From: Aliamphritea spongicola
Lineage (GTDB): Bacteria > Pseudomonadota > Gammaproteobacteria > Pseudomonadales > Balneatricaceae
Assembly (NCBI GenBank): GCA_024347235.1
Contig: AP025283.1
Coordinates: 2,170,001 to 2,234,000 of the forward strand
DNA: 64,000 nucleotides
Direction of reading: 5' to 3'
Shown here: one piece after another, positions 6,113-29,859 of the stretch
How positions within the stretch are numbered: position 1 is the stretch's first letter
How the letters are laid out: each line of letters begins with the position of its first letter
The notes under the pieces: generated by a model
What the model was told of the DNA's origin: nothing
Seen by the model: the letters and a program-made list of their open reading frames with translations, nothing else
Database searches by the model: none
Translations under genes and position numbers: made by a program

Positions 6113-6723
6113 TTATAAATACTGATTGGCAAAATTTGCCAGCTCTTCCGGTAACAGCTCATAGAGCCAAACATCCGGTAACCAGACACTGACGCCAACC
6201 CTGAAGATCAGAATCAGGGCGGTCACCGTGCCGAGGGTGCAGGCGAACCAGAACCGGTCCAGTAAGCGGCTGAGCCACAACAGGGTGGTGACGAACATCA
6301 GGGTCGCCAGGGCAAAACCGAATACCGAGAGGGTATTAATGTAAAGAAAGAATAATGCGCTGGAAAACAGGGCTACCCGGTAGTTACTGAGGGTAGCCAG
6401 CAGGCTGTCGATCGGATCAATGCTGCGTAACCAGATCAGCCGGAAGGAAATCATCAGCCGCACGGCAGTGAAAATCATCAGTACACTGAGGCCAATCGCC
6501 GGACCGATCATCGGTTGGGTATACCAGCCCCGTTTGGTGTTGACCCATTGGCTTCTTCGGGCAGCAGGATCAGCAGGGCAGCAGCCACGGCCAGTAACAG
6601 CCAGTAAATACCGAAAGTACGTTGTTCCACGAGCGGGGTGTCATGTTCAGCGCTGGCGGAATTGCTGGCATCACTGCTGGCAGGCCCGGCAGGTTTGTCT
6701 AAAGGGCTGTCTGTCGCGTTCAT
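6113..6723 (-). CDS. tctB: TctB-family small membrane subunit of a TTT transporter, frame-broken
   Basis: This is the small four-helix subunit paired with TctA. A polar N terminus of about 45 residues rich in S, P and A is followed by hydrophobic segments (YWLLLAVAAALLIL; IGLSVLMIFTAVRLMI; ALFSSALFFLYI; FALATLMFVTTLLW; LGTVTALILIF). One missing base near 6525 joins the frames. ATG 6723 is chosen because AGGAG lies about 10 bases upstream; an earlier start would have no ribosome site. It lies between tctC and tctA. Length and helix pattern, more than sequence motifs, support the family. Confidence 0.82.
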
Positions 6724-6826: not shown

Positions 6827-7786
6827 TTACTGCTTCATGAAGTCCAGCAGATCCTGAGCGGCATCGTAGTCGTCAGAGACAACCTGTTCCGCTTCCGCGC
6901 CGGCGATCCAGTACACACCAGCACCGGTGGTTTTCGCCAGTTCCTGAGCGCGGTCTGAGGCCATGGTTTTGGCGGCGATTTCAGCAATGCGTGCCTTGAT
7001 TTCAGGAGAGGTACCCTGTTTAACAAACAGGCCGTTCCAGGTGGTCTGGCTGACGCCGGTTTGCTCATTCAGAGTCGGTACTTCAGGGGCGATGCTCAGA
7101 CGGTCACGGGTGATGGCAGACAGCAGTTTTACATCACCGGATTTCAGGCAGGCAATGATCTGCTGAGTGGTGGTGTTAATCACGTCCGCATCGCCGTTAG
7201 CCAGGGTAGAGCAGTCGTTGGAATCAAAAGGTGCATCGGATGAGAACTTGATGCCGATTTTATCCGCCGCTTTAAAGGTAATAGCGGTTGGCAGGGCCTG
7301 ATAACCGAAGTGGCCCAGAGATACCGCGTTGTTTTGAGAGTATTCCGCCAGTTCGCCCATGGTGTTGTAAGGGGAATCCGCTTTGGTGGCGATAACAAAC
7401 GGGTAATCCAGGAAGATGCCGACAGGTTCAAAGGTTTCTTCATTAAACGGTGCATTGCCCGCCAGTACATGGGTGGTCAGGATATCAGCCACGAAAGAGC
7501 CGATAGTCAGGCCGTCAGCCCGGGCGCGGGATACATCAGATGCGCCCACCACGCCGGCACCGCCTGGCTTGTTGACCACGGAAGCCGGCTTACCGGTTTC
7601 TTTGGCCATGTCTTCGGCCACCATACGGGTGAGGATGTCTTCCAGGTCGCCGGCAGGCCATGGCACAACAAATTTCACCGGACGGTTAGGGTAATCGGCT
7701 GCCTGTGCCTGGGACATCAGTAAAGGGGTTGCAGATACACTGGCTGCAACAACAGCAGTAGAAACCAGATTTATTATTTTTTTCAT
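6827..7786 (-). CDS. tctC: TctC/Bug-family periplasmic solute-binding protein
   Basis: This periplasmic receptor delivers a carboxylate to TctAB. The 319-residue frame is intact. A Sec signal peptide (MKKIINLVSTAVVAASVSA, cleaved near AQAADYP) is followed by the Bug-family opening YPNRPVKFVVPWPAG. The ligand-loop region has VVNKPGGAGVVGASDVSRA, and GTSPEIKARIAEIAAKTM lies near the end. An internal Cys pair (NDCSTLANG, QIIACLKSG) may form a disulfide. It is the second gene of the operon, after uspA. The ligand cannot be told from sequence; Bug proteins bind diverse carboxylates. Confidence 0.92.
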   Translation of the reverse strand: MKKIINLVSTAVVAASVSATPLLMSQAQAADYPNRPVKFVVPWPAGDLEDILTRMVAEDMAKETGKPASVVNKPGGAGVVGASDVSRARADGLTIGSFVADILTTHVLAGNAPFNEETFEPVGIFLDYPFVIATKADSPYNTMGELAEYSQNNAVSLGHFGYQALPTAITFKAADKIGIKFSSDAPFDSNDCSTLANGDADVINTTTQQIIACLKSGDVKLLSAITRDRLSIAPEVPTLNEQTGVSQTTWNGLFVKQGTSPEIKARIAEIAAKTMASDRAQELAKTTGAGVYWIAGAEAEQVVSDDYDAAQDLLDFMKQ

Positions 7787-7843: not shown

Positions 7844-8334
7844 TTATTTTTCTTTTCTCAGGGGCACGATCAGCACCGGCACCTGGCTCTGATGGATAAC
7901 CTTCTGGGCAGTTGAACCCAGGAATATCCGCGAGATACTGTTGCTCTCGCGGTCGCCCATGACGATCATGTCTGCTGCCATGGTTTTGGCTTTATCCAGA
8001 ATGATTTTGTGAGGCTGACCGATGGATACTTTGATGATGGCCGGTTTGGGCAGGGATACACCGGCCTCCAGTTCACTCTGAACGAAGGATTCGATGCGTT
8101 CTGTGATCCGCTGCTTGCGACTTTGCATGATCTGCTCGCTGTGTTTTTTGCTGAGTTTTTCCGGCAGATAGTCTTCGATAATGTCTTCGGTGAGCTCGCT
8201 GATGGGCTCCACCGCATGTAAAAAATGATTTCAGCGTTGTGCTTAATGGCTTCATTCACCGCATAGCGGAATGCCGGCCGGCTGCCCTGGCCAAGGTCAG
8301 AGGCATAGAGAATTCGGTTAATGGTTTGCAGCAT
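7844..8334 (-). CDS. UspA-type universal stress protein linked to TTT transporter, frame-broken
   Basis: This cytoplasmic Usp-fold protein opens with INRILYASDLGQGSRPAFRYAV and ends with the nucleotide-binding signature MAADMIVMGDRESNSISRIFLGSTAQKVI and VPVLIVPLR. One missing base near 8218 joins the two halves. It is the first gene of the TTT operon. It closely resembles the protein at 31780-32262 beside the TRAP transporter (shared opening YASD-x4-GSRPA). In Halomonas the Usp protein TeaD regulates the TRAP transporter TeaABC, so a regulatory role for this copy is plausible by analogy. Confidence 0.85.
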
Positions 8335-8396
8335 GGTTATACCTTCGCAACGCTGAGTATCATTGCTATCTATTAGAGAGGATCGGTACCACAAAA

Positions 8397-8418
8397 ATAT
8401 CAACCGGATGGTTGATAT
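8397..8418. promoter_or_regulatory. Perfect inverted repeat upstream of the uspA-tct operon (candidate operator)
   Basis: Nine-base arms ATATCAACC (8397-8405) and GGTTGATAT (8410-8418) flank GGAT. The site is about 63 bases upstream of the uspA start. Nearly the same palindrome occurs at 11570-11587 and a degenerate copy at 16084-16101, each upstream of a catabolic operon. The protein that binds it is unknown; a LuxR-type regulator at 16133-16835 is one candidate. Confidence 0.6.
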
Positions 8419-8459
8419 GTGCAGATTCACGTGGTGCAGGCGAGGGCTTGATAAGGCAT

Positions 8460-8697: not shown

Positions 8698-10109
8698 TTA
8701 CTTGTTGATGTTGATGATTTGCGGCACGGTGTACTCCAGCAGACCGTCTAGCCCGAATTCCACCCCGAAGCCAGACATCTTGCAGCCACCAAAGGGGGCA
8801 TGGGGCAGCACTTCTGCGTGGCCGTTAATCCACACGGTGCCGCATTCCAGCTGCGCCGCAATGGCCTGAGCCGCATCCAGATCTTTACCCCAGACAGAGC
8901 CCCTAAACCTACGGAGCAGTCGTTGGCCATGCGGATGGCATCGTCGACTTCGCTATAGGCGATAACCGGCAGGGCCGGGCCAAACTGTTCTTCATCCACC
9001 AGACGAGTGCCGTTGCTGACATTGGCAACAATGGTCGGCGGGTAAAAATAGCCGTCGCCGGACAGGGCTTCGCCGCCGCACAGAACCTTACCGCCATTCG
9101 CAGCTGCATCGGATACCAGTTCGCTGACGATCTTCAGTTGGTTGGCGTTCTGAACCGGACCGAAGGTGGTGGTGTCAGCCATACCATCGCCGACGGTCTG
9201 TGCCTGCGCCAGTTCAACCAGTTTGTCGCATACCGCCTGATATTGGCTTTCATGCACGTACAGGCGTTTCAGGCAGGCACAGGTCTGGCCCATATTCAGA
9301 AAGGCTGTCTGGAACAGGCCTTCAGCAATGGCGTCGATATCACTGTCTGGCAGGACGATCGCCGCATCATTACCACCGAGCTCAAGCGTCAGACGCTTAA
9401 GGTTGCCGGCGGCACTCTCCATGATGCGCTGACCGGTTGCCGTTGACCCGGTGAACACGACTTTCTGAATATCTTTATGGGCGCTGATGGCGTTACCGAT
9501 TTCCGCTTCACCGGTGACGATGTTCACCACTCCTGCAGGCAGCACTTCATTCATCAGTTCCACTAACCGCAGGGTATTCAGCGGTGTCAGGCCGGAAGGT
9601 TTACAGACAACTGTATTGCCTGAGCGCAGTGCCGGAATGATGTGCCAGATAGCAATCATCAGCGGCCAGTTCCACGGGGTGATGGAAGCCACCACACCCA
9701 GAGGCTTACGGTGATTCTCAATGCGCTTGTTGGGGCTGTCTTCAATTACTTCAACAGGAATGTCCAGATCCGCAGTGTAGCGAGCCCATGCCAGAGCACC
9801 CTGAACTTCCATATTGGCCAGAAACAGCGGTTTGCCCTGTTCCTGGACAATGATTTCAGCCAGTTCATCCCCGTGCTGCTCAATCTTATCGGCGATCTGA
9901 CGAATCAGTGTCTGACGGTTTTCATGGCTGCTGTGCTGCCAGGTTTTAAAGGCAGCACCGGCTGCTGCTACAGCTTCGTCCAGCTGGGCCACAGAGGCCA
10001 GCGGCGCCTGGGCAACCGTCAGTTCAGTAGCAGGGTTAATCACATCAAACTGGCCGGCGGCACCGGCAACAGAATGTCCGTTGATGGTCAGTTGAATTGC
10101 GTCAGACAT
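8698..10109 (-). CDS. NAD(P)-dependent aldehyde dehydrogenase, frame-broken near C terminus
   Basis: This ALDH-superfamily enzyme oxidises an aldehyde to its acid in the cytoplasm. Visible are the coenzyme motif ITPWNWPLMI, the VFTGSTATGQ loop, the general-base Glu in LTLELGGND and the catalytic Cys in NMGQTCACLKRLYV. One missing base near 8900 shifts the end; the restored C terminus reads ECGTVWINGHAEVLPHAPFG and ends in IININK at 8698. ATG 10109 is chosen because GGAG lies at the right distance upstream. Two more ALDHs with better-defined roles lie at 21729 and 26581. The co-directed porin, TTT operon and phospho-lyase module suggest a shared catabolic route; the substrate is unknown. Confidence 0.88.
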
Positions 10110-10189
10110 AGTTTTTCTCCCGGGTGACGGCCAGAACCTTATGAGGGAATCTGCAACTGGCGTCACCGTATTATGGTTGTTGTTAAGGA

Positions 10190-11476
10190 TCAGAAGGGCA
10201 CGATGGCCAGTAACTGGAAATAGGTGTTGGTATCGGTGTTATCGACCACGCTGGTTTTGCTGTCCGGGGTATAGAAGCCCAGCAGCGGGCTGATGATCAG
10301 ATGATCATTCACCACCCATTCGGCATAGAGGTTAACTTCCCGCGCGTCGGAACGTTCCGCCCGGCCGGTGGTGTCTTCAAAGTCGAAATACAGCGCACCG
10401 ACAGTCAGCGTGTCAGTTGGGTTGGCTTTCACGCCAATGTGATGAACATCAACGCCGGTGTTACCCGGGCCGGCTGCGGAGTAGTTGGCCCAGACTTCAC
10501 CCTGGAACCAGGTGCCGAAGCCACGGTTAAAACCGGTGAACAGGCTGTCGTAGCCCTTATCAAAAGTGCTGTAGCGGTAGTTCACACTTGGCGACCATGG
10601 CAGGTCGGCGAAGGTCCAACCGGCTTCCGTGTACCAGGCGTCGGCATCGGCGGTATTGTTGCCCTGTTCCTGGGTGGCGAACTCGGCGGACAGAAACAGA
10701 TTTTCTACTCCGGCGTTGCCCTGATAGCGCACACTCATGGTTTCCTGACCATCACGCTGCAGGTTATCGAAGTTACCGTCGGCAATGCCGGTAGGGTCGG
10801 TATCCAGTCCTTTCAGGTAAAACGCGCCAAAAGTGCCAATGTCGCTGACATGTTCAACATTGATACCGGCCATTTCCGGGCGGCCCTGAACCTTGTTATC
10901 AGATTCCAGCCAGAAAATATCAGAACGTAATCCTGTATCACCACCGAGTTTCAGTACGGCGGTTTTATCAAATGCCTTGCGGCCGGCCAGCCAGTAGGCA
11001 CCGCCACGGTTCAGGTCGGTATCGACGCCGTTACCGAAGTTGAGGGCGTCATCATTGAGAATGAAGCCGTCGCCGATGGTGATGATCTGACGGCCGATGG
11101 AGAAATCCACCATGTCATCACGCCAGCCACCGTATACCTCTTCAAAGCGGGTCTGACGTTCGTCACCCAGGGTGGTGCCGGAGGCTTCACCGTCACCCCA
11201 TGCGCCGGTGGTCAGAGCGTTGATCTTGCCGTAGAACTGGCTGTTGTTGCTGAGGGTGGTGTGCCCGGAAAAGCCGTATTTAATGGCCGCTTCCTGCCAC
11301 TGGGGACTGCTGTCCGCATTGCCGTATGACTGGTCACTGCTGAAAGTACCGAAAATGGCTTCGATATCCAGATTCAGCTGGTCACCGTCTTTGTCGATTA
11401 AATTAAGTGCATAGCCCGGGTGCTGATGGTTGCTGCTAACAGCAAAGATGAAAGGTAATGACCTTTTGCAGTCTCA
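10190..11476 (-). CDS. Outer-membrane beta-barrel porin (alginate-export/OprD-like), frame-broken in signal peptide
   Basis: The mature part is a long run of alternating polar and aromatic beta strands ending in the classical C-terminal Phe (YFQLLAIVPF), the BAM recognition signal. It contains EEVYGGWRDDMVDFSIGRQIITIGDGF, a motif region seen in alginate-export/DUF1302-like porins. The start ATG 11476 follows AGAGG and opens MRLQKVITF. Two missing bases between about 11455 and 11420 are needed to join a signal peptide (SLLLAATIS) to YALNLIDKDGDQLNLD. It lies 80 bases before the aldehyde dehydrogenase on the same strand and downstream of the 11570 palindrome. It probably admits the operon's substrate. 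Confidence 0.8.
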
Positions 11477-11569: not shown

Positions 11570-11587
11570 ATCAACCAGATGGTTGAT
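11570..11587. promoter_or_regulatory. Inverted repeat ATCAACC-AGAT-GGTTGAT upstream of the porin (candidate operator)
   Basis: Perfect 7-base arms with a 4-base spacer lie 94 bases upstream of the porin start. The site shares its spacer pattern (NGAT) and arms with 8397-8418, pointing to one regulator for both operons. Confidence 0.6.
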
Positions 11588-11690: not shown

Positions 11691-12605
11691 TTATTCTTTA
11701 CTGAGTTTTAGGTAGACGCCCAGTGCCATCAGCAGGGCGACAGCGGCCATCATCATCCATACGGCGTTGAGCACCTGGGTATCGCTTTCTGCCAGCAGGG
11801 ATTTAAACATCAGTAATAAGGATTCAATCGAGATCGCAATGACGATTGCCGACATAAACCGGGTAATGGTCCGCCGGGAGGTATCGTGGTGGTGGATGTC
11901 TTTGTTAGACAGCACTTCTTCTTCGAGGATGGTTTTGCCAAGGTCGAAAATAGCCAGCCCGAGGGTAATCAGGATGACGATACCAAAGGCGCCGGTAGTG
12001 ACGTCGCTGGTGAGCTGAAATACATCAAGTAATGATTTGCTCGCACCTGCCAGTAGCAGCAGGGAAACGATGACCAGCAGGCCGCCAATGATGGCGTATA
12101 CACCCTGAAAAGCCGGATGTACCCGCTCCCGTAACTGGTCTCCCTTGAGATAAGAAATCAGCCGCTGCAGGTTAAAATTCAGCACCACGTAGCCGGTGAC
12201 TTCGCCGTTGCTGTTCTGAATCGTTTGCACACAGGAGATGGCCAGCTGGTGGGTGGCGCTGGACAGATAGGGTTCCGTGACGCTGACTTCACGGTCCCGG
12301 TGTTGCAGGATCTGCATGTAGGGCCGCTGGCTGCGGTCGCGGCCTTTGCCGGGCTGGCGGCGCTTGCGGTAACTGACATGGGGGCTGAATACGGTATCCA
12401 TCAGCTGCACGCCGTGACTGTCCAAACTGTACATCAGTTCGATGAAGGGATAGTTCTTGCTCAGGCGCCGTACCGCCTGCTGTTGCTGTTCCTGATCAGA
12501 GAGCAGCTGTGCGCCGCTGAGGCTGGCCATCATGGATTCCATGAGGCTGTGCACAGCCTGTCTGTATTGCTGGTAGTGCTCCAGCAACCGTAAATGGTTC
12601 TGCAT
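11691..12605 (-). CDS. PDC-sensor-like integral membrane protein
   Basis: This intact 304-residue protein begins with a soluble region predicted to be extracytoplasmic-sensor-like (PDC/Cache: YPFIELMYSLDSHGVQLMDTVF, SQRPYMQIL, VTEPYLSSATHQLAISCVQTI, GEVTGYVVLNFNL). At least four hydrophobic segments follow (about 168-190, 205-225, 250-270 and 280-298). No kinase, GGDEF or methyl-accepting domain is attached, so how a signal would leave the protein is not visible. There is no cleavable signal peptide; the N terminus may be cytoplasmic or an export frame may be missing. It is monocistronic. The PDC call rests on pattern, not exact motifs. Confidence 0.6.
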   Translation of the reverse strand: MQNHLRLLEHYQQYRQAVHSLMESMMASLSGAQLLSDQEQQQQAVRRLSKNYPFIELMYSLDSHGVQLMDTVFSPHVSYRKRRQPGKGRDRSQRPYMQILQHRDREVSVTEPYLSSATHQLAISCVQTIQNSNGEVTGYVVLNFNLQRLISYLKGDQLRERVHPAFQGVYAIIGGLLVIVSLLLLAGASKSLLDVFQLTSDVTTGAFGIVILITLGLAIFDLGKTILEEEVLSNKDIHHHDTSRRTITRFMSAIVIAISIESLLLMFKSLLAESDTQVLNAVWMMMAAVALLMALGVYLKLSKE

Positions 12606-13688: not shown

Positions 13689-14707
13689 TTAAGTGCTTTG
13701 TGAAAGGTACTTTTCAGCCTGATGGCAGGCCCGGCTGATCAGGTCAGTGGTCAGTTCCCGGGCGGTCTCTGTTTCCTGACGGTCCTGAATCCAGCCCAGA
13801 TAAGTGAAGCCCCGGGCAGTGAGGAAGGTTTCCAGTAACTGCAGGTCTTCGTGCTTCAGGAGGCGTAACTGGCAGTACCCTTCAGTCAGGGCGGTTTTTG
13901 CCGTTTCATAGTCCGGTTCCCGGAGCACAAAATACAGAGCGGTTGCCAGTTCAAACATATGCCAGCCGAAACCGGCATCGTCGAAATCCAGCAGGCGCAC
14001 AGTGTCACCGTCGGTCATCAGATTCTCCGGCACGAAGTCTGCGTGGATCAGGCTGTAGTTCCGGGGATTTTTCCAGCGTACACAGTACATTTCTGACTTT
14101 GTCTCTGGCCTGTAGCAACAGTGCCCGCTGATCCGGTGTAAGCTGCGGCAGCTCCCAGAAACGCCCCAGAAGGGCTGTTCCCCACCAGACCTTCCGCATC
14201 CCAGGCCTGCCGTTCAAAGCCGTCGGGCAATGGCCACTGGCTGGCCTGATTATGCAGCTGTGCGGCGATCAGGCCGATTTGTCGGTAGGTGCGGTGAATG
14301 CTTTCAGCATCTTTCCCCAGGCCGTGTTCAACACTGCCCAGCTGCTCGCCACTGATCCAGGCGAACAGATCAATACAGCGGGCTTCCGGCACGGCATCAG
14401 TCTGGACACTGACCAGTAGTTGTCCGTCGGCAGTGGGGATGACTTTGGGTACCGCGATGCCAGCTTCATCCAGCGCGGCCATCCACTGCAGTTCAGAGCG
14501 AAGCGCTGCACTGCTGTGATACCCCGGCCGGTGGATGCGCAGGGCGAAGGTGTTATCTGCGGTGATCACTTTAAAGACGGCATTTTCCCGGTATTTGATC
14601 AGGCTGATGCTTTCAGGCGTCAGATCCCAGTGTTGCAGGGCATGCCGGGCCAGCAGGGTGAGCCGCTCCGCCTGCTGGTCCGGGGTGAGTTGGTAAAAAT
14701 CATCCAT
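13689..14707 (-). CDS. APH/choline-kinase-fold kinase (hydroxylysine-kinase-like), frame-broken
   Basis: This is a small-molecule kinase of the aminoglycoside phosphotransferase fold. The N lobe reads LIKYRENAVFKVITADNTFALRIHRPGYHS (nucleotide-binding Lys/Arg region). The catalytic loop is SLIHADFVPENLM (the HxDxxxxN form, with Asp and Asn) and the metal motif is VRLLDFDDAGFG. Several missing bases lie near 14180, 14165 and 14075. Its start overlaps the stop of the phospho-lyase-like gene by 8 bases, so the two are coupled. In animals a kinase of this family (HYKK) phosphorylates 5-hydroxylysine, and an AGXT2L enzyme then removes phosphate and ammonia. The same pairing here suggests an amino-alcohol substrate; which one is inference. 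Confidence 0.8.
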
Positions 14708-16021
14708 GAGCCATTTCCTCCGAGACCTGCTGCAGCACCTTGTCCAGTGTGTGGATCAGCAGATCAGCGTGTTCCGGCTGAAAAGGCATGGGCGGGCGAA
14801 GTTTGAGAATAGAGTCATGTACGCCGATCACGCTGATCAGCACACCCTGTTCCTTCATAAGGTTGATGATGCGCCGGGCCTGTTTGTTTGCCGGCGTTTT
14901 GGTGACGGGGTCGGTGACCAGTTCAACCCCGAAGAACAGGCCCCGGTCACGAACTTCGCCGATAAGGGGATAACGGGTTTGTAAGCTGCGTAATCCTGCT
15001 GCGACGTATTCACCGGTACTGACGGCGTTGGCCAGCAGGTTATCCTGTTCAAGGGCATCCAGCACCGCCATACCCACGGCACAGGACACCGGGGTGCCGC
15101 CAAAGGTGTTGAAGTACATTGAATGCTCGGTAAAAGCATTTATCAGCTCACCGCGGGCAACCACACCTGCCAGCGGATGACCGTTGCCCATGGGTTTCCC
15201 CAGGGTGACGATGTCCGGTGTAATGTCGTACCACTGATGGGCCCACCAGTGTTTGCCGGTCCGGCCAAAGCCGGCCTGTACTTCGTCGGCAATCAGCACG
15301 CCACCAGCCTTGTGCACCAGCGCCGTGGCTTTTTCCATAAACCCGGCAGGGACGTTAAGCAGGCCTTCGTTGGCAAAATCCGGGCAGACCAGCATGCCGG
15401 CAAACGGGATACCTTCAGCGGCGAATTCATCAATGGCGCGGGCGATTTGTGCGGCATAGGCATCCGCCAGCTGATCTTCTGTTACACCGTCGATACCCCT
15501 ATAGCTGTCCGGAATGGCGAAGGCTTTTACCCGTTTGGTATGACGGGCTTCCGGCATGAAGCCGGTGCCGATTTCGGCTACCGCTTCGGTGTTTCCGTGG
15601 TAGGCAAAATCCGTGACGATAATGCCCTGGCCACCGGTGTAATGCCGGGCCATGCGCAGGGCCAGTTCGTTAGCTTCACTGCCGGTGCAGGTCAGCATGG
15701 CCATGTTAAGGGTATCCGCGAAGGTGGCGCTGAGCCGCTCGGTGTAATCAATGATGTTGTTGTGCAGATAGCGGGTGTGCACATTCAGAGTGCTGGCTTG
15801 GCGGTGCATGGCTTCCACTACCCGTGGGTTACAGTGGCCCACGTGGGGAACATTGTTATAAACATCCAGATAACGTTTGCCGCTGTGGTCATACAGCCAG
15901 ACATCTTCTCCGCGGACCAGATGAAGTGGCTCGTCGTAAAACAGGGGAGTATGGGGGCCGAGGATATTTTTCTGCGGGCCAGCAGTTCCTGAGCTGCAGA
16001 ATACGAAGGGGAGTTTTGCAT
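14700..16021 (-). CDS. Class III PLP enzyme, AGXT2L/phospho-lyase type, frame-broken near N terminus
   Basis: This fold-type I PLP enzyme has the Lys region ADEVQAGFGRTGKHWWAHQ ... IVTLGKPMGNGHPLAGV, where the Lys in GKPMGNG binds PLP. It resembles ethanolamine-phosphate and phosphohydroxylysine phospho-lyases (LDVYNNVPHVGHC, RYLHNNIIDYTERLSAT, YFNTFGGTPVSCAVG) more than GABA transaminases. The true start is ATG 16021 (MQNSPSYSAAQELLARRK), joined to NILGPHTPLFYDEP after one missing base near 15972. The alternative ATG 16085 gives an N terminus unlike the family. It overlaps the kinase gene downstream. Phospho-lyase is favoured, but a plain aminotransferase cannot be excluded. Confidence 0.82.
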
Positions 16022-16083
16022 AACAGATACCGTCAAACTGTTGAATCAGCGTTCGAGTATCCGCTTTATTCTGTCTGAGAAGC

Positions 16084-16101
16084 ATCCATCAGATGGTTGA
16101 G
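16084..16101. promoter_or_regulatory. Degenerate copy of the ATCAACC-NGAT-GGTTGAT palindrome
   Basis: ATCCATCAGATGGTTGAG matches the 11570 site at 15 of 18 positions and lies 63 bases upstream of the phospho-lyase start. That is the same distance as the 8397 site from uspA. One arm is intact (GGTTGA) and the other is weak. Confidence 0.4.
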
Positions 16102-16132
16102 AGTGGGGTTTAATATAGTTTAACGGAGAGGA

Positions 16133-16835
16133 TCAGCTGGCCTGTAAAAGTTGCAGGCTGCGGCTGACCAGTTCTGCCCGTGACTGTACGCCGGTTTTCT
16201 GAAAAATGTGGTGCAGGTGGGTTTTACCGTGGCCAGACCCAGGTTAAGTTCCGTGGCAATTTGCTTGTTATTGGCACCGCTCATCAGCAGTTCCAGTACA
16301 TCCAGTTCCCGTTCGGTAAGCTGATACTGCTGGTGGAACCCCTGACGCTCCTGTTGCCGGCGGGGCAGATACACCGTATTCAGGCTGTACTCCATGAAGG
16401 GCTGAACACTGTTGAGCAGTTCCAGTTCGGAAGCTGTGAAATTGCCCAGGCTTTCCGCCCGCAGGATACTGAGAATGGCGACGATCGTGCCCTCAAGGCG
16501 GAAGAACATGTCTGCCACGTAGCGATGTTCATTGGGCAGCATGAATTCCTGATAGTAGCGGCTCTGTTTCAGCAGGTGTGGGGCAATCTGAGAGTCCAGC
16601 GTGGCGACCCGGGTGTCTTTGTCGCGGAAGCGGTCCGGGCTGAGTGGGTCCATAGTACTGTACTTCTGGGTGTACTGCTTCTCCATATCCTGAGCGCCGT
16701 TGAAGATCACCGCCCCCGGTGCTGCATACCCGGTTCAACCAGAAAGAAAACCGCATTGCTGACCGGTAACAGACTGCTGATCAGGGACAGGCTCTGGTGC
16801 TGGAACTGATGGGGAATAAGCGGGGATGCAGTCAT
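16133..16835 (-). CDS. LuxR-family transcriptional regulator, frame-broken
   Basis: The C-terminal helix-turn-helix is clear: YQLTERELDVLELLMSGANNKQIATELNLGLATVK, then after repair HLHHIFQKTGVQSRAELVSR. The N-terminal 160 residues (SLSLISSLLPVSNAVFFLVEPGMQH, MFFRLEGTIVAILSILRAE) look like a ligand-binding alpha/beta domain but are not an obvious AHL-binding domain. Missing bases near 16718 and 16228 restore about 234 residues. ATG 16835 opens MTASPLIPHQFQHQS. It precedes the phospho-lyase/kinase pair on the same strand and is the natural candidate regulator of that operon. An HpaR-like palindrome lies 40 bases upstream. Confidence 0.82.
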
Positions 16836-16874
16836 ACAGACATACCTGACCGGGATTAAACAGATAATAATTCG

Positions 16875-16889
16875 GTTAACATATTAACT
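16875..16889. promoter_or_regulatory. HpaR-like palindrome upstream of the LuxR gene
   Basis: GTTAACATATTAAC contains TTAACATATTAA, identical in core to the site before dctP at 28761. It lies about 40 bases upstream of the LuxR-type regulator start. Confidence 0.6.
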
Positions 16890-16922
16890 ATGTTTGCGGA
16901 TTGCAAGATTAATAACCGAAAG

Positions 16923-16945
16923 ATTCCCCGCGCAAGGCGGGGAAT
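16923..16945 (-). terminator. Hairpin downstream of the C1 reductase gene
   Basis: Arms ATTCCCCGC and GCGGGGAAT (9 bp) enclose a 5-base loop, about 30 bases after the reductase stop on the minus strand. The T-run after it is weak (TCTTTCGG). Confidence 0.6.
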
Positions 16946-16972
16946 AGTGACAGTGCTTTTAAGAGAGTGCTT

Positions 16973-17911
16973 TTACAGCTTATCGATCAGTTGCTTCAGC
17001 TGGCTCTTCAATGTCGCCGTTTGCTGTGGGCTCAGGTCGCTGAGCAGCTTCGCTTCTTCTTCCAGTGCCAGCTTCTGCAGGCGGCGGGCCATCTCTGCAC
17101 CGGATTCAGTGGCTTTAAGGGTGTCTTTGTCTTTGTACTGAATCAGGCCTTTTTCCATCATCCAGTCGGCGGTCTGGCGCAGGCTGATTTCCGGCTGCAT
17201 AACCAGATCGGTTAACTGGTCGATGGCGACTTCAGGCTGGTTCACCATGCGGGCCAGGATGCGCCATTCTTCCGGGGTGACATCGCATTCATGGTTCAGT
17301 TTCGGATACAGCTGGGCGCTGAAACGCTGGTAAGTTTCCCGTACCAGATATAACAGATAGTCTCCCACAAAGTCGTTTTCCGGGGCGGTAACCGTTTCGG
17401 CCTGGTTCTGCATCATTTCTGGGTGCTGGGCAGAGACTGCATAGCTGCCACGGGCAAATACCAGCGGCTCGGTTTCACTGTGGTGGCGGTATTCTTTAAC
17501 TTCACCTACCAGAATCAGGTGGTCGCCGCCTTCGTAAACTGCCCAGGTATTACATTCAAACTGAGCGGCGTAGTCGTCCAGCAGCGGTACACCGCCAATG
17601 CCGGTGTGATACTCAGCGTTGGCAAACTTGTCTTCACCGCGGCTGGCAAAGTTATTAGACGTGCTGACCTGTTCGCGGCCCAGTACGTTTACCGCAAAGT
17701 GCTTGGCATTCTGAAACGCGCTCAGGCTGTTGGCGCCTTTATCGATACTCCACAGAACCAGTGCCGGTTCAATGGATACAGAGTTGAAGCTGCTGGCGGT
17801 GACGCCAACCGGATTGCCGGACTCATCCAGCGTGGTAATAACGGTGACGCCGGTGGGGAACTGGCCCAGTGCACGGCGGAAATCTTTAGCATCGAAACCT
17901 GAAGCAGACAT
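16973..17911 (-). CDS. hpaC: 4-HPA 3-hydroxylase flavin reductase with C-terminal MarR-like domain (C1 type)
   Basis: This protein reduces FMN with NADH and supplies reduced flavin to the oxygenase at 19364. Residues about 8-165 form the flavin-reductase fold (FRRALGQFPTGVTVITT, GVTASSFNSVSIEPALVLWSIDKGANS, FECNTWAVYEGGDHLILVGEV). Residues about 180-312 form a MarR-like winged-helix domain (TYQRFSAQLYPKLN, TPEEWRILARMVNQPEVAIDQLTDLV, LIQYKDKDTLKATESG). This two-domain plan and the 312-residue length match the Acinetobacter baumannii C1 reductase, where HPA binding to the C-terminal domain stimulates flavin reduction. The frame is intact. It is the last gene on its strand after hpaA. Confidence 0.92.
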   Translation of the reverse strand: MSASGFDAKDFRRALGQFPTGVTVITTLDESGNPVGVTASSFNSVSIEPALVLWSIDKGANSLSAFQNAKHFAVNVLGREQVSTSNNFASRGEDKFANAEYHTGIGGVPLLDDYAAQFECNTWAVYEGGDHLILVGEVKEYRHHSETEPLVFARGSYAVSAQHPEMMQNQAETVTAPENDFVGDYLLYLVRETYQRFSAQLYPKLNHECDVTPEEWRILARMVNQPEVAIDQLTDLVMQPEISLRQTADWMMEKGLIQYKDKDTLKATESGAEMARRLQKLALEEEAKLLSDLSPQQTATLKSQLKQLIDKL

Positions 17912-18066
17912 AGATATTACTCATTATTGTAGTTAGTTGGGCGGTCTGATGTGGCTGGCTGATACCCGTTCAGGTCAGCATGGCTGTGTAAAGCACCAGA
18001 ATACGCATTACCTGAGAAAATTATAGGCCCGTTGTGAAATCTATGAATATAATTTTCATGGCTTCA

Positions 18067-18116
18067 CTGGTACTTTTCATGTGGGTGCGTTTTGCCGAAG
18101 CTGCAAAAAGTACCAG
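18067..18116. promoter_or_regulatory. Inverted pair of AAAAGTACCAG elements between hpaA and the reductase gene
   Basis: CTGGTACTTTT (18067-18077) and AAAAGTACCAG (18106-18116) are exact reverse complements with 28 bases between them. They lie 155-205 bases upstream of the reductase start. Related elements lie upstream of the oxygenase (19236) and of hpaD (36814 and 36835), so an HpaA (AraC-type) binding role is proposed. Confidence 0.5.
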
Positions 18117-18141
18117 ATTTTAAAACGGTATCCATCTGTAT

Positions 18142-19064
18142 TTACAGGTTTTTACGTTTGTCACGGTATTCGCTGGCAGTAACGCCTGTATTTCTGCGAA
18201 AGAAACGGGCGAAATACGCCGGGTCTTTGAATCCCAGGTGATAGCCGATTTCCGTCACCGGTGCAGTTGAATAGGTCAGCAGGCGGCGGGCTTCCTGCAC
18301 CAGCCGGTCCATAATCAGCCGTTTTGAAGGCTGACCCGCAAGGCGGCGACAGATGTTATTCAACCGGGCTTCGGTAACGCCTATCTGATCCGCGTAGTGG
18401 TCCAGCGTCAGGTGTTCCCGGAAATGGTTTTCGATCAGTTCATTGAAACGGTGAAACACCCGCACATCTTCCTTTTGGGTATTCTGTTGCGGCTGGCCCT
18501 GATCCGCCAGGCGGGATATATCTATCAGTACCAGCTGCAGCAGGGCCTGCTGGGCCCGGGCGTGTTGCAGGCTGTCCGGGTTGTTCTCGGCAGACATCAT
18601 TTCAAGCAGCTGCAGCATACGGCTGGCGGCCGCATCATTACCGGACGTTTGCAGTTCAACACATAAAGGCTGGCTCATTACCCCCTGGCTGTTTGGCTGG
18701 TCGATTCCCCGAGCATTTCCCAGATCAGTTGCTGACGAACGGTAATCACATGGCCGCTGGCCTGATCATCAGTAATAAAAGCGTGCGGAACAGTGGGCGG
18801 GGTGAGAAAGAACATTGGTGCCCGGGCGCTGTAACTGACTTCATCCAGATGGACCCGCACGGTACCGCTGAGCACCACGTGTAACTGGTAGAAACGGTCG
18901 TGATAATGCACCGGCATATTCCGGCCAAAGAAGTCCGCCAGATTTTCCAGACGTTCATAATGAATGTCCGCTTCTATGTAGCGCTGATCATATACCTGAC
19001 CAATATGGATGTTGGGAATAGCATCCTTCTGGCGGGTTTTGAGGGCAGTGGTCCGGGTATTCAT
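18142..19064 (-). CDS. hpaA: HpaA, AraC-family activator of HPA catabolism, frame-broken
   Basis: The N-terminal cupin effector domain (IHIGQVYDQRYIEADIHYERLENLADFFGRNMPVHYHDRFYQLH) is followed by a C-terminal AraC DNA-binding domain with two helix-turn-helices. The second is YHLGFKDPAYFARFFRRNTGVTASEYR. The N-terminal motif HYHDRFYQLH is characteristic of HpaA, which binds HPA and activates the hydroxylase genes in E. coli. One missing base near 18683 joins the halves into about 307 residues. It is divergent from the C2 oxygenase gene, with two HpaR-like palindromes between them. Confidence 0.9.
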
Positions 19065-19146
19065 GGTTCGCTGTAAAGTCCTGTCAGACGTTTTTCTAAC
19101 CTATATTTGTGCAAGCTGATGATTCAGGGTTTTGTAAGCAATTCTT

Positions 19147-19160
19147 GTTAACTTATTAAA
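19147..19160. promoter_or_regulatory. HpaR-like site in the hpaA/C2 divergent region (1)
   Basis: GTTAACTTATTAAA matches the TTAANATRTTAA consensus, with TT instead of AT at the centre. It lies about 85 bases upstream of hpaA. Confidence 0.5.
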
Positions 19161-19207
19161 ATATAGGGTTTTTATGTTTTTAGATAGAGCTTGTAGTATC
19201 TGTTTTT

Positions 19208-19222
19208 ATTAACATGTTAAGT
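19208..19222. promoter_or_regulatory. HpaR-like site in the hpaA/C2 divergent region (2)
   Basis: ATTAACATGTTAAGT contains the perfect palindrome TTAACATGTTAA (19209-19220), about 145 bases upstream of the oxygenase start. An HpaA-like element, AAAAGTACAAC, follows at 19236-19246. Confidence 0.65.
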
Positions 19223-19363
19223 TCTGTGTCTTATCAAAAGTACAACAAAGCCACTGAAAGATCCATTCTCCTGAGTGACTGTGCGTTGCAAACTGTCATC
19301 ATCACGCAGCAACCGTTGCCCGGTGACTGCCTAAAACAAGAATCACAGGAAGGTAGCAATATC

Positions 19364-20534
19364 ATGCACAGGCCAAACCCATTACTCGACAAGCTTCAGG
19401 AAATTCTGCCGCGGATTGCGGAGAATGCAGCACAGGCTGAAGAAGCCCGTACCGTGCCGGACGAGAACATCCGTCTGCTTAAGTCCATTAAGTTTCACCG
19501 GGCGCTGCAGCCTAAAGCCTATGGCGGTCTGGAAATTTCCCTGCCGGAACTGACCGACTGCATCGCGGCCATTGCCGGTGCCTGTGGCGGTACTGCCTGG
19601 GCAGGCAGCCTGCTGGCAACCCACAGCCATCAGATGGCGATGTTCTCCAAACAGGCTCAGGACGAGTTCTGGGAGATGATCCGGATGCGACTGCCAGCAG
19701 CAGTATCGCACCGTTCGGTAAGGTAAAGGAGACCGAAGGCGGGGTGCTGTTCAATGGCGATATGAAGTGGAGCTCCGGCTGTGATCATGCGGAGTGGGCC
19801 ATTCTCGGCTTCCTGCGGGACGGCGAAAACGGCGAGAAAATATATAGTTTCGGTGTGGTGTCCCGGGATGACTACGAAATTGAGGACGACTGGTATGCCG
19901 CCGGCATGCGTTCCAGCGGTACCAAGACCCTGAAGATCAAACCGGATACCTTCATTCCTGAACACCGTATTGAAGCGGCCAAAGATATGATGACCGGCAA
20001 GTCCGCAGGTTTTGGCCTCTATCCGGACAGTAAGATCTTTTATGCGCCTTACCGGCCGTACTTTGCCTGTGGCTTTGCGGCCATCGGTCTGGGCATTGCC
20101 GAGCGAATGCTTGAGGTATACCGCAATATCACTAAAAACCGGGTGCGTGCCTATACCGGTGCCAAAGTAGGGCATGCCACTCCGGCGCTGATGCGTCTGG
20201 CAGAGTCCACCCATCAGGTGGCAGCAGCCCGGGCCTTCATGGAAAAACCTGGGATGAACATAAGGAAATGGGTGAGCTTAAGCAGTATCCGACGGATGAG
20301 CAGCTGGCCTTCTGGCGCACCAATCAGGCCTATGCGGTGAAGATGTGCATTGAAGCGGTAGATCGTGTCTTTGAAGTGGCCGGTGGCAGCTGCTGGTTCA
20401 GCGATAACGAAGCCCAGCGTCTGTTCCGGGATTCCCATATGACCGCTGCCCATGCCTACACCGACTATGACGTCTGTAAACAGATTCTGGGCCGTTCCCT
20501 GATGGGGCTGGAGCCGGACCCAACCATGGTCTGA
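19364..20534 (+). CDS. 4-hydroxyphenylacetate 3-monooxygenase, oxygenase component (C2 type), frame-broken
   Basis: This enzyme uses reduced flavin and oxygen to convert HPA to 3,4-dihydroxyphenylacetate. It has the acyl-CoA-dehydrogenase fold and is very similar to A. baumannii C2: VPDENIRLLKSIKFHRALQP, ACGGTAWAGSLLATHSHQ, NPDATASSSIAPFGKV, WSSGCDHAEWAI, KSAGFGLYPDSKIFYAPYRPY, LMRLAESTHQVAAARA and a C-terminal LMGLEPDPTMV. Missing bases lie near 19682 and 20247. ATG 19364 follows AGGAAGG; the frame is open further upstream but without a better ribosome site, giving about 390 residues against 422 in C2. It pairs with the reductase at 16973. Confidence 0.93.
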
Positions 20535-20555
20535 TTCATTCTAAATCTGTAAAGA

Positions 20556-20588
20556 AAACCCGCGGCTCGAAAGAGTCTGCGGGTTTTT
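20556..20588 (+). terminator. Rho-independent terminator after the C2 oxygenase gene
   Basis: AAACCCGC and GCGGGTTT arms with an inner GCTC/GAGT pairing are followed by TTTTT. The hairpin lies 22 bases after the stop, so the oxygenase is probably transcribed on its own. Confidence 0.8.
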
Positions 20589-20618
20589 GCGTCGGTAAAT
20601 TTTCAGGAAATCTCTGAT

Positions 20619-21568
20619 ATGCAGGATTTTACTTACATTCTTTCACTCACCAGCCCGACATTCTTGCTGATTGGACTGGGCTTTCTGGTGGTCCGGCTGG
20701 GGTATCTCAGCCGGGATGCAATCCGTACCTTTGGCTGGTTTGTTATCAATATCGGTTTGCCGGCGGCGATGTTCAAAGCGCTCAGTTCCCGGTCGTTTCA
20801 GGATATTCTGCATTTTGATTATCTGCTGATTTTTGGCCTGGGTTCGCTGTTGTCATTTCTGACGCTGTTTGGCATCGCCCGTTTACGGTGTAAGTCACTC
20901 ACTGAATGCGCCATGTTTGGCCTGGGCGGCAGCTTGTCGAACAGTCTGATGATCGGTTTTCCCATCATTATGCAGCTGTTTGGCGAAGCCGCGCTGGTGC
21001 CGTTTGCTCTGACGCTTATCGTTGAGAACTTCTTTATCCTGCCATTGGCGCTGGCACTGGCGGATACCGGCCAGCAAAGCAGTGATGGCTTCTTCCGCTC
21101 ACTGGGCGCAGCACTGCCGCAGTTGCTTAAAAATCCGGTGGTAATGTCCATCGGGGTAGGGCTGGCCAGTGCGCTGACCGGGCTGCAGCCACCGGAATTC
21201 GTGGACAGGGCAATCGATATACTGGCAATGACAGTTGGTGGTCTGGCCCTGTTCACTATCGGTGGCATGCTGGTGGGGCTGCGGCCGGCGGGTATGGTGA
21301 CGGATATTTCGGTCATTGTGCTCGGTAAACTGGTTCTTCACCCTTTATGCATTGTACTGATGATCCTTCTGATGCCACCCATGCCGGCACTGTTTCAGTC
21401 GGTGGCGCTGGTACTGGCCTGTATGCCTATGTTCAGCATCTATGCGGTGTTTGGTCTGAGATACAACATGGGGAGCTGTGTTCTGCGGTGTTGTTGCCGG
21501 CAACCTTGCTGGCATTTTTCAGCATTAATCTGATGATCTGGATCGTGGATGTGACAGCGACTTCATAG
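20619..21568 (+). CDS. AEC (auxin efflux carrier) family permease, frame-broken at the C terminus
   Basis: This membrane protein has about ten hydrophobic segments in the AEC arrangement (SPTFLLIGLGFLVVRLGYLS; FGWFVINIGLPAAMFKAL; LGGSLSNSLMIGFPIIMQLFG; IVENFFILPLALAL; LLKNPVVMSIGVGLAS; LALFTIGGMLVGL). One missing base near 21473 restores the last helix (AVLLPATLLAFFSINLMIWIV). AEC members move organic acids such as malonate or malate. Placement between the oxygenase and gabD suggests uptake or release of an HPA-pathway acid; direction and substrate are not known. Confidence 0.85.
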
Positions 21569-21604
21569 CTCGTCGTTCGCCTTTATGATGAATATTATAA
21601 AATT

Positions 21605-21620
21605 AGTTAACTTGTTAACT
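21605..21620. promoter_or_regulatory. HpaR-like site upstream of the succinate-semialdehyde dehydrogenase gene
   Basis: AGTTAAC-TT-GTTAACT is a perfect 16-base inverted repeat about 108 bases before the start at 21729. Confidence 0.65.
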
Positions 21621-21728
21621 AGTTTTAATTAGAGTACCCTGCAGTAAATACAAAAACGCTTATCAGTGGGCAGCCAGAATATTATCGGTTGCCGGCTAAG
21701 ATGATAAATAAATGAATACGGGTAAGTT

Positions 21729-23186
21729 ATGAAATTAGAATTACAGGACAGCACACTGCTGAAAACCCAGGCCTTCATTAACGGTGAATGGGTGAACGGT
21801 GATGAGGGTAAGAGTTTCGCGGTATACAACCCGGCCAACGGTGAGAAAATTGCCGACGTTGCCAGTGTGGGTCAGGCGGAAACCCGCCGTGCGATTGAGG
21901 CAGCAGAAGCAGCAATGCAGAGCTGGAAAGCCCTGTCAGCGGCACAGCGTTCTGCTGTACTGGAAGCATGGCATGGCCTGATTCTGGAAAATCAGCAGGA
22001 TCTGGCGGCGCTGATGACCCTTGAGCAGGGTAAGCCGCTGTTCGAATCGGTGGGTGAGGTTGCTTACGGCGCGTCTTACCTGAAGTGGTTTGCTGAAGAA
22101 GGCAAGCGGGTGTATGGCGATATTATTCCGACCCCGCAAACTAACCGCCGCGGTGTGGTGGTTAAACAGCCGGTAGGGGTGGTTGCTGCAATTACACCCT
22201 GGAACTTCCCGAATGCAATGATCGCCCGTAAGGTGGCCCCGGCCCTGGCGGTGGGTTGTGCCATTGTGCTGAAGCCGGCGGCGGAAACGCCACTGTCGGC
22301 ACTGGCGCTGGCTGAGCTGGCGAAGCGTGCCGGTCTGCCGGATGGCCTGTTTGCTGTGCTGCCATCATCAGATGCAGCGGCGGTGGGCGGTGAAATGACT
22401 TCCAACCCGGTGGTGAAAAAGTGACCTTCACCGGTTCAACCCCGGTGGGCAAACTTCTGATGAAACAGTGTGCGGATACCGTTAAGCGTACCTCTATGGA
22501 ACTGGGCGGTAATGCGCCGGTGATCATCTTTGACGACGCAGATCTGGATGCGGCCATCGAAGGGGCACTGGTGTCCAAGTACCGTAACTCGGGCCAGACC
22601 TGTATCTGTGCCAACCGCCTGCTGGTGCAGGAAGGTATTTACGACGCTTTCGTTGAGAAGTTTACCGCTGCCGTGAATGGCTTCCGTCTGGGGCAGGGAT
22701 TTGATAAAGAAACCACCCATGGCCCGGTGATCACTGAAAAGCACTGAACGACATTCATGCCAAGGTAGAGAACGCCGTGGCGGAAGGGGCAACTGTGGTC
22801 ACCGGCGGTAAGCCATCTGAGCTGGGAGGTAACTTCTATGAGCCTACAGTGCTGACGGATGTGAATACCGACATGCGGGTGTTCCGCGAAGAGATCTTTG
22901 GTCCGGTTGCACCGGTGTTTAAGTTCTCTACGGAAGAGGAAGCCATCGCGATGGCTAACGATACTGAGTTTGGTCTGGCGGCCTATGTGTATACCCAGAA
23001 TATCGGCCGTGTGTGGCGGGTATCAGAAGGCATCGACTACGGCATGGTGGGGGTGAATGAAACCGCTATCAGTTCTGAAGTCATCCCGTTTGGCGGAGTG
23101 AAAGAATCCGGCCAGGGCCGTGAAGGTTCAAGTACGGTCTGGACGATTATCTGGAAACCAAATACATCTGTATGGGTGGTCTGTAA
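21729..23186 (+). CDS. gabD: Succinate-semialdehyde dehydrogenase (GabD type), frame-broken
   Basis: This ALDH-superfamily enzyme shows FINGEWVNGDEGKSFAVYNPANGE, EQGKPLFESVGEVAYGASYLKWFAEE (typical of GabD), ITPWNFPNAMIARK, the Glu motif SMELGGNAP and the catalytic Cys in NSGQTCICANRLLV. Missing bases near 22422, 22744 and 23135 restore about 486 residues ending DDYLETKYICMGGL. HpaI aldol cleavage in the same cluster yields succinate semialdehyde, which this enzyme would turn into succinate for the TCA cycle. It has its own HpaR-like site upstream. Confidence 0.9.
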
Positions 23187-23293
23187 GCATCGCCTGATGC
23201 ACAGCCTGGTGTCAGTGCCGGGCTGATCCGTTTTATCTCTTACTGAGCGTATCTGTATAACCCCTTTGTGGGGATGGCCAGTTTTATATAAAT

Positions 23294-23309
23294 ACTTAAT
23301 ATATTAATT
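23294..23309. promoter_or_regulatory. HpaR-like site upstream of hpaH (1 of 3)
   Basis: TTAATATATTAA (23296-23307) is the first of three tandem TTAA-type palindromes within 75 bases upstream of the hpaH-hpaI-hpaG-hpaE operon. Confidence 0.6.
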
Positions 23310-23320
23310 AGTAGAAATTG

Positions 23321-23334
23321 ATTAAGATGTTAAG
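23321..23334. promoter_or_regulatory. HpaR-like site upstream of hpaH (2 of 3)
   Basis: TTAAGATGTTAA (23322-23333) matches the consensus with G at position 5. It is 26 bases downstream of the first copy. Confidence 0.58.
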
Positions 23335-23351
23335 TATATTCAGTTAAAGAT

Positions 23352-23366
23352 AGTTAAGATGTTATC
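23352..23366. promoter_or_regulatory. HpaR-like site upstream of hpaH (3 of 3)
   Basis: AGTTAAGATGTTATC is an imperfect copy 31 bases after the second. It lies about 95 bases before the hpaH start. Confidence 0.5.
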
Positions 23367-23461
23367 TATTTGTTGGGCAGATGAAGCACTCAGCACAGAT
23401 AACCGGCCGGCAACTGTTGTGTGCCAGGCCTGAAAACAAACATATTTTAAAGGGCACATAT

Positions 23462-24265
23462 ATGTTAACTCCGGAACAGATCAGCGATGCCGCTGAACGC
23501 CTTTATAACGCAGAGAACGGCCGGCAGCAGATCCCGGCACTCACCCTGGATTACCCCGGGATGGATATGGACGATGCTTACAAAATTCAGAAAACCTGGG
23601 TAGACCGTAAGATCGAAGAGGGTGCCAGCGTTAAGGGTTACAAGATTGGCCTGACATCCCGTGCCATGCAGATGGCCGTGAACATTGATCAGCCGGACTA
23701 CGGCGTGCTGCTGGATGACATGTTCTTTGCGGATGGTGCAGAAATTAAGGTCGATGACTTCCTTGATCCGCGCATCGAAGTTGAACTGGCATTTGTGCTT
23801 AAAGACTGTCTGGAAGGTGACAATATCACTATCTTTGATGTGCTTAATGCCACGGATTATGTGGTACCTGCGCTGGAGCTGATTGCTGCCCGTTGCCACC
23901 GTACTGATCCTGAAACCGGCTACACCCGCAAGGTACTGGATACCATTTCAGACAACGCTGCTAATGCCGGCATTATTCTCGGTGGTCGCCCGATCAAGCC
24001 TATGGAAATTGACCTGCGCTGGGCCGGTTCACTGTTGTACCTCAATGGTCAGATCGAAGAAACCGGCATCGCCGCCGGGGTGCTGGGTCATCCGGCGAAC
24101 GGTATTTGCTGGGTGTGCAAGCGCTTTGCCCCTCACGGCGTCGCGCTGGAACCGGGTCAGGTGATTCTGTCCGGATCTTTCACCCGTCCGGTACCGGTAA
24201 AAGCCGGTGATACCGTGCATGCAGATTACGGCCCGCTGGGCGGTATCTCTGTGAAGTTTGTCTGA
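23462..24265 (+). CDS. hpaH: HpaH, 2-oxo-hept-4-ene-1,7-dioate hydratase
   Basis: This enzyme adds water to the enol/keto diacid formed after decarboxylation, giving 4-hydroxy-2-oxoheptanedioate for HpaI. The 267-residue frame is intact. Family motifs are [40 protein letters not shown], the metal-site region [12 protein letters not shown] (acidic residues), ALELIAARC and GILLG-like IILGGRPI. The end [21 protein letters not shown] is typical. ATG 23462 is the first of the operon; the next gene starts 11 bases after the stop. Confidence 0.95.
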
Positions 24266-24275
24266 GGATCGGCTT

Positions 24276-25114: not shown

Positions 25115-25129
25115 TCAGGTACAGAAACG

Positions 25130-29827: not shown

Positions 29828-29859
29828 TACGTGTAACCGACAGATGTGAGGTAACTCCT

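Follow-up and report, generated by a model that had tools for sequence, protein, structure and literature searches.

Closest described systems

The human proteins ETNPPL/AGXT2L1, and PHYKPL with hydroxylysine kinase, follow a logic of kinase and pyridoxal phosphate (PLP)-dependent phospho-lyase, and a comparable gene module of Aliamphritea spongicola is the subject of this work. It lies in a stretch of 64,000 nucleotides (contig AP025283.1, positions 2,170,001 to 2,234,000; the whole stretch is called the window below) with genes for a PLP enzyme, a kinase, a LuxR-type regulator, an aldehyde dehydrogenase (ALDH), a porin and an uptake system. The module likely serves the breakdown of arylethanolamines, i.e. 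beta-hydroxylated phenethylamines; this substrate class is proposed because of the gene neighbours found here and in several unrelated bacteria. ETNPPL, unlike the window enzyme, groups with other sequences and has G where the window enzyme has E240. The bacterial protein A1RDF1 of Paenarthrobacter aurescens TC1 (5g4i/5g4j) is like the module in belonging to the same clade (clade A, see below), in having kinase and ALDH genes adjacent and in being surrounded by 4-hydroxyphenylacetate (HPA) genes, but its kinase is on the opposite strand, and an amino-acid permease and a TetR gene take the place of TctABC and LuxR.

Among annotated families, PRK06148 and PRK06149, which we take to be APH-M23-aminotransferase fusions, are the two best NCBIfam matches of the PLP enzyme, yet both are far below cut-off (501.3 of 1128 bits and 391 of 973 bits), and homologues whose open frames span about 1000 aa are placed in a different clade. 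The PLP enzyme stays below the cut-off of each of the 25 best NCBIfam models shown, in line with the initial annotation, which held that this is not a standard annotated pathway. For Pseudomonas aeruginosa, Cuskey et al. reportedly described in 1987 an octopamine hydrolyase activity (EC 4.2.1.87) that forms 4-hydroxyphenylacetaldehyde and ammonia from octopamine; its overall conversion equals the one proposed here. That activity was described as a hydro-lyase, and we know of no ATP step or gene for it. A literature search in one open library found no bacterial arylethanolamine kinase or phospho-lyase, and nothing joining octopamine with a phospholyase.

Phospho-lyase, kinase and regulator

The core of the module consists of the following features:

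14700-16085, minus strand: putative PLP-dependent phospho-lyase, class III aminotransferase fold (Pfam Aminotran_3; the PLP lysine is K297 of the open reading frame, ORF)
14048-14707, minus strand: APH-fold kinase, N-terminal piece with KYRENAVF (Pfam APH)
13689-14090, minus strand: APH-fold kinase, C-terminal piece in another frame, with HADFVPEN and DFDD motifs (Pfam APH)
16120-16835, minus strand: LuxR/GerE-type regulator, in pieces (GerE match in ORF 16120-16710; N-terminal part in another frame, to about 16835)

The PLP ORF encodes 461 aa, and the true start is probably later, because the alignments with most relatives begin near residues 38-41. Against all PDB sequences, the best match is A1RDF1 (5g4i; 421 bits, E 4e-125; 44-47% identity) and the second is human ETNPPL (6tor, ethanolamine-phosphate phospho-lyase; 388 bits, E 7e-115), while the third, an isoleucine epimerase (185 bits, 2.5e-53), is far behind both. 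The PLP lysine and the class III core (K297, D267, E268 and Q270) are unchanged across the rows of 29 relatives. E240 is fixed throughout clades A and B; together with P235, N239 and H283 it is a candidate specificity position, given as a lead only, and listed positions 1-27 and 461 were ignored, the alignment there being taken to rest on few rows. Phospho-lyase chemistry is thus very likely for this enzyme, and the initial annotation, which had placed it with the AGXT2L phospho-lyases rather than with transaminases, agrees with the distance of the next solved relative. The same annotation had the PLP gene stop overlapping an APH-fold kinase and a LuxR-type regulator directly upstream, and both features are present, the overlap measuring 8 bases (14700-14707, the PLP gene stop with the kinase ATG).

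The kinase of the window is split over two ORFs of different frame, each matching Pfam APH, with a weak NCBIfam match to PRK06148. Residues H224, D226, N231, D243 and D245 (HxD...N and DFD motifs) are invariant across 19 rows, and the motifs are present in the window pieces. Kinase-then-phospho-lyase chemistry is therefore well supported at the level of sequence, because of both the closest solved relatives and the invariant catalytic residues. The LuxR gene is also broken in the window; in the relative G001 it is a single ORF of 234 aa, and the kinase is likewise a single ORF. These frame breaks are likely draft errors, because the completeness score of the window genome is 78% against 99% in G001. 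Intact copies of both genes are present in relatives, and Marinobacterium stanieri and Amphritea opalescens, among others, have an unbroken kinase and lyase. The named loci nearest to the module belong to an Oceanospirillaceae metagenome-assembled genome (MAG) and to Amphritea. Five genes within 13689-25516 of the window are split between frames, namely those for the kinase, LuxR, HpaA, the hydroxylase oxygenase and succinate-semialdehyde dehydrogenase (SSADH), and are single ORFs in locus L067 of G001.

Linkage to aromatic degradation genes

An HPA cluster adjoins the module, a link absent from the initial annotation. It begins one gene away, the gene after LuxR being the first of the following list:

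16973-17911, minus strand: p-hydroxyphenylacetate 3-hydroxylase reductase-like component (best family of the L067 orthologue, under cut-off, 255 of 340 bits)
18142-19064, minus strand: HpaA regulator, two ORFs (L067 orthologue above TIGR02297 cut-off)
19214-20340, plus strand: p-hydroxyphenylacetate 3-hydroxylase oxygenase component (C2), two ORFs (L067 orthologue above NF045920 cut-off)
23381-24265, plus strand: HpaH, 2-oxo-hept-4-ene-1,7-dioate hydratase (above TIGR02312 cut-off on the window)
24593-25114, plus strand: HpaI aldolase, part (fragment, under cut-off)
25130-25516, plus strand: HpaG N-terminal subunit, part (fragment, under cut-off)
26673-28103, plus strand: HpaE, 5-carboxymethyl-2-hydroxymuconate semialdehyde dehydrogenase (793 bits, cut-off 638)

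In this HPA (homoprotocatechuate) pathway, HpaE and HpaH pass their cut-offs on the window itself, and HpaA and the oxygenase do so on the intact L067 orthologues.

Similar linkage is found on plasmids. A homologue of the PLP enzyme at E 1e-60 or better is present in 383 plasmid records, and 14 stretches, chosen by eye and not drawn, were read. Seven of them carry annotated HPA, phenylacetate or tyramine-oxidase genes. A1RDF1 is a 100% match on plasmid pTC2, where hpaE, a hydratase, HpaI, SSADH and a maoB/feaB phenylacetaldehyde dehydrogenase lie nearby, together with an amino-acid permease; the kinase there carries the annotation homoserine kinase. The pair adjoins hpa genes in Agrobacterium leguminum and Rhizobium binae, lies near hpcB and hpaR in Sphingobium, adjoins paaX and paaABCDE in Mesorhizobium, and is about 4 kb from hpaD in Roseateles. 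In Phyllobacterium it is near an ALDH, a permease and an annotated tyramine oxidase, the latter a copper amine oxidase by Pfam and under the NCBIfam primary-amine oxidase cut-off. No HPA, paa or tyramine-oxidase genes were found near the pair on two Shinella plasmids, which have a decarboxylase, an ALDH and a permease instead, nor in the stretches of the Pseudomonas shirazica, Klebsiella, P. mandelii, Chelatococcus and E. coli records. In Chelatococcus (L191, 7850-10233) a kinase and phospho-lyase-like pair stands beside an ectoine/hydroxyectoine utilisation cluster; from this pair, other clades may serve other hydroxy-amines.

In a tree of 123 rows, the window enzyme belongs to clade A (32 rows; SH-aLRT support 94), which also holds A1RDF1, L118 and sequences from Mesorhizobium, Sphingobium and marine gammaproteobacteria. 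Clade B (17 rows; SH-aLRT support 100) contains f89 and f93 sequences besides rhizobial ones. Neither clade includes ETNPPL or the fusion-sized homologues (open frames of about 1000 aa). A1RDF1 is on a long branch and the deep branching order is unsettled; loci L189-L193, fetched later, are outside the tree. All 14 rows labelled for aromatic (aryl) genes belong to clade A or B, and none of the neighbourhoods read outside these clades has such genes. Members with HPA genes are the window group, a Cellvibrionales MAG, Rhizobium, Agrobacterium, three f89-family genomes, Sphingobium and pTC2, and members with paa genes are Mesorhizobium and G227, so that aryl-linked members span gamma- and alphaproteobacteria and one actinobacterium. 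Genes for a Tm-1-like ATP-binding protein and a HAD hydrolase (L080, 6692-8598; L082, 6695-8595) repeatedly precede those of the transaminase and lyase in clade B.

An even sample of 397 Pseudomonadota genomes, our own included, was searched at E 1e-105 or better. A homologue was present in 48 of the 397 genomes, at 64 places in all, and neighbourhoods of up to 20 kb were read at 62 of the 63 places outside our own genome. HPA or paa markers were found at four of these 62 places (L118-L121), which are the four best-scoring. Aryl genes occur within about 10 kb at four of the 13 places that belong to clades A and B and at none of the other 49 (p 0.0013; this and the other counts and p-values ignore the relatedness of the genomes, and L061/L183, with one HpcB-like match 5.1 kb away, and L066 were excluded from the aryl counts). 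Anywhere in the genome, HpaH or PaaA was above cut-off in 12/13 clade A/B genomes, in 15/34 other carriers and in 98/396 genomes, the difference between clade A/B and other carriers giving p 0.003, or 0.016 for PaaA alone. Among 95 relatives, HpaH was above cut-off in 11/11 genomes with a lyase of at least 60% identity, compared with 33/95 overall. The clade A enzyme was found in 30 genomes (G024 by partial match only), 27 of which have HpaH or PaaA above cut-off; neither was found above cut-off in G485, G496 and G497, PaaA having been searched in only part of the genomes.

Some markers lie farther from the lyase. On the same contig, they are 25 kb away in G487 and 29 kb in G488, while HpaH and PaaA are at 33 and 10 kb in G498 and at 24 and 11 kb in G502. 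Distances are 26-36 kb in G008, G009 and G010 and 20 kb in G501, where the contigs of marker and lyase agree in length. In G205, which belongs to clade B, about 17 kb separate HpaH from the lyase, beyond the stretch read. No aryl markers were found in the loci read for other clade A members, among them L033, L036, L037, L041, L042, L044 and L045.

These results bear on the substrates named in the initial annotation. Hydroxylysine breakdown as in mammals has an enzyme pairing that is alike in principle, but aryl genes and no lysine or aminoadipate genes were recognised among the annotated neighbours (the annotation is partial, and PHYKPL and HYKK were not compared), and this reading is very improbable. 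A hydroxylysine or plain amino-alcohol substrate is in general unsupported, since ETNPPL, the enzyme compared (not PHYKPL or HYKK), is elsewhere in the tree and aryl genes occur only around part of clades A and B. The amino-alcohol pathway of the initial annotation is thus retained in its phospho-lyase, kinase-lyase layout, ALDH and operator, and finds no support in its hydroxylysine or plain amino-alcohol substrate.

A shared operator and its proposed wider regulon

The palindrome TCAACCANNTGGTTGA is common to three operons of the window, which encode the lyase and kinase, the porin and ALDH, and the uptake system. The sites and the remaining genes of these operons are:

16085-16100: operator copy with 2 mismatches to TCAACCANNTGGTTGA, before the lyase-kinase operon
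11571-11586: operator, perfect copy, before the porin-ALDH operon
8400-8415: operator with 1 mismatch, before UspA-TctC-TctB-TctA
10190-11113, minus strand: outer-membrane porin, C-terminal part (weak Alginate_exp-like match)
8748-10166, minus strand: aldehyde dehydrogenase, putatively of arylacetaldehyde type, as judged from relatives (L067 orthologue compared)
7844-8430, minus strand: universal stress protein (UspA), two overlapping ORFs
6827-7786, minus strand: TctC solute receptor (Pfam on orthologues)
6113-6511, minus strand: TctB-like subunit (orthologue under Pfam cut-off)
5370-6098, minus strand: TctA subunit, part (Pfam on orthologues)

The initial annotation had noted a candidate operator shared with the ALDH, and the site reaches further than was claimed, to all three operons. 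Genome-wide (4.99 Mb), there are 2 perfect sites, and 61 sites at up to 2 mismatches compared with 24 for the reversed control. A site-like sequence at 29103 (2 mismatches) was not counted, being inside a TRAP receptor gene. The LuxR protein would bind the TCAACCANNTGGTTGA-like sites and co-regulate the three operons. Of 32 loci tested, 17, all from marine gammaproteobacteria, show a LuxR match that lies 142-194 bases ahead of the start of lyase homology (for L040 a 45-residue piece only). Each of the 17 also carries a site-like sequence between -107 and -138, which has 2-5 mismatches and was equalled by no more than 6% of shuffles. In L042 a comparable sequence stands at -76 and there is no LuxR match; in L049 and L059 LuxR is almost 1 kb distant and a good site is missing. 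The remaining 12 loci show neither a LuxR match in the nearest 1.5 kb nor a site-like sequence (two of them offer fewer than 700 bases upstream). Because each upstream site was taken as the best within 180 bases of its locus and compared with plain shuffles, these figures are suggestive.

The second perfect operator (2159736) lies between genes for a class III omega-transaminase and a tyrosyl-tRNA synthetase (TyrS), near a second LuxR and TctA. The omega-transaminase (L215, 13357-14703) matches PRK07481, at 763 bits for a cut-off of 575 (read in G001), and its relatives of at least 42% identity were found, in the loci searched, only at clade A/B loci, in Roseateles, on the L061/L183 contig and in the window's genus. 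The synthetase is an additional copy:

L214 9363-10652 (own genome about 2159862-2161151) and L215 14931-16214: extra tyrosyl-tRNA synthetase by the second perfect operator

The extra TyrS is present in 8/8 module-bearing genomes of the genus tested (in G000, the window genome, the other copy is in pieces) and in 3/6 genus members tested that lack a lyase of at least 60% identity, and lies about 17-27 kb from HpaH in G006, G007 and G011. Taken together, a phenethylamine transaminase, a phenethanolamine kinase-lyase pair and a spare TyrS would make sense as one set of genes dealing with tyrosine-like amines. The operator at the omega-transaminase and the extra TyrS, together with short-chain dehydrogenases (SDRs) nearby, could also point to a related aromatic compound whose head resembles tyrosine, such as a beta-hydroxytyrosine derivative or an N-methylated amine, octopamine being a mere analogue; locus L035 adds DAO, RidA and ornithine-cyclodeaminase-like genes. 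Known phospho-lyase chemistry requires a free primary amine adjacent to the phosphate-bearing carbon, however, a need that octopamine meets directly, and such a compound is quite improbable as the substrate.

Proposed arylethanolamine pathway

In the arylethanolamine pathway that we propose, the porin and TctABC would take up the substrate, and the kinase would phosphorylate the side-chain hydroxyl of Ar-CH(OH)-CH2-NH2 at the expense of ATP. The PLP enzyme would then eliminate phosphate and ammonia to give the arylacetaldehyde Ar-CH2-CHO, which the ALDH would oxidise to arylacetate; breakdown would be completed by the HPA hydroxylase and the HPA meta-cleavage enzymes encoded nearby. Octopamine would be the most likely substrate here, and phenylethanolamine or norepinephrine in relatives. 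The reaction class is ordinary and known, and the pathway use is probably new.

The ALDH is a plausible next step, as the initial annotation had proposed, lying about 4.5 kb from the PLP gene with an operator in common. Its orthologue in L067 is 48 and 51% identical to two pTC2 ALDHs, the former annotated maoB/feaB, and 57% identical to the Phyllobacterium ALDH, compared with 36% to SSADH and 34% to HpaE; it falls short of the NCBIfam cut-off for StyD, phenylacetaldehyde dehydrogenase (407 of 850 bits). The uptake system beside the porin is of the tripartite tricarboxylate type (TctA and TctC by Pfam on orthologues, TctB weak); a reading as a TRAP system was dropped, since Pfam gave TctA and TctC. 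A protein at 11691-12605 with a sub-threshold dCache match and no NCBIfam match has a conserved place between the porin and kinase genes in loci L067, L068 and L032.

Several observations weigh against an arylethanolamine substrate. A1RDF1 is known to act on phosphoethanolamine, and Tct transporters usually carry anions, while octopamine is a cation. Aryl markers were seen in only 9/32 clade A rows within the stretch read (mostly 8 kb on each side), some clade B loci had no aryl genes in the stretch read, and HpaH alone separates clade A/B genomes from other carriers with p 0.07 (8/13 and 11/34). Identity between the L067 ALDH and the rhizobial ALDHs is only 36%, and because of this the rhizobial clade B loci appear, by sequence comparison, to use another kind of ALDH. 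Finally, EutB was not found in 7 of 14 module-bearing genomes, which include the window genome, G001, G002 and G012.

The last point and the phosphoethanolamine activity of both closest solved proteins, A1RDF1 and ETNPPL, would fit a breakdown of ethanolamine or 1-aminopropan-2-ol, with an amino-alcohol kinase, an amino-alcohol-phosphate phospho-lyase and the ALDH oxidising the aldehyde. Because searches of the window genome and of three close relatives gave no EutB, an ethanolamine role keeps some probability. EutB is present in the other 7 of the 14 genomes, though, and as a discriminator it was set aside as neutral. ETNPPL belongs to another part of the tree, and ethanolamine leaves unexplained the linkage to HPA and paa genes, the annotated tyramine oxidase and the feaB-annotated ALDH. 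We therefore consider it rather unlikely and prefer the arylethanolamine pathway.

It is quite possible that the module supplies the missing gene pair for bacterial breakdown of phenylethanolamines (octopamine, norepinephrine and phenylethanolamine). The long-reported 'octopamine hydrolyase' would then be an ATP-dependent kinase plus a phospho-lyase, clades A and B of this widespread group of genes would be arylethanolamine-phosphate lyases, and the extra TyrS would keep the tyrosine-like substrate from disturbing protein synthesis. If the arylethanolamine pathway is correct, it suggests a physiological substrate class for the crystallised A1RDF1, which is known to us only from a phosphoethanolamine assay, and corrects the generic 'aspartate aminotransferase family' label for part of the homologues, those of clades A and B only. 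It would also provide a testable gene pair for bacterial breakdown of octopamine- and noradrenaline-like amines.

Other genes in the window

TRAP transporter genes are found at 28895-31759, after HpaE. Part of a type I secretion ATPase and an HlyD-family adaptor are encoded at 976-3573.

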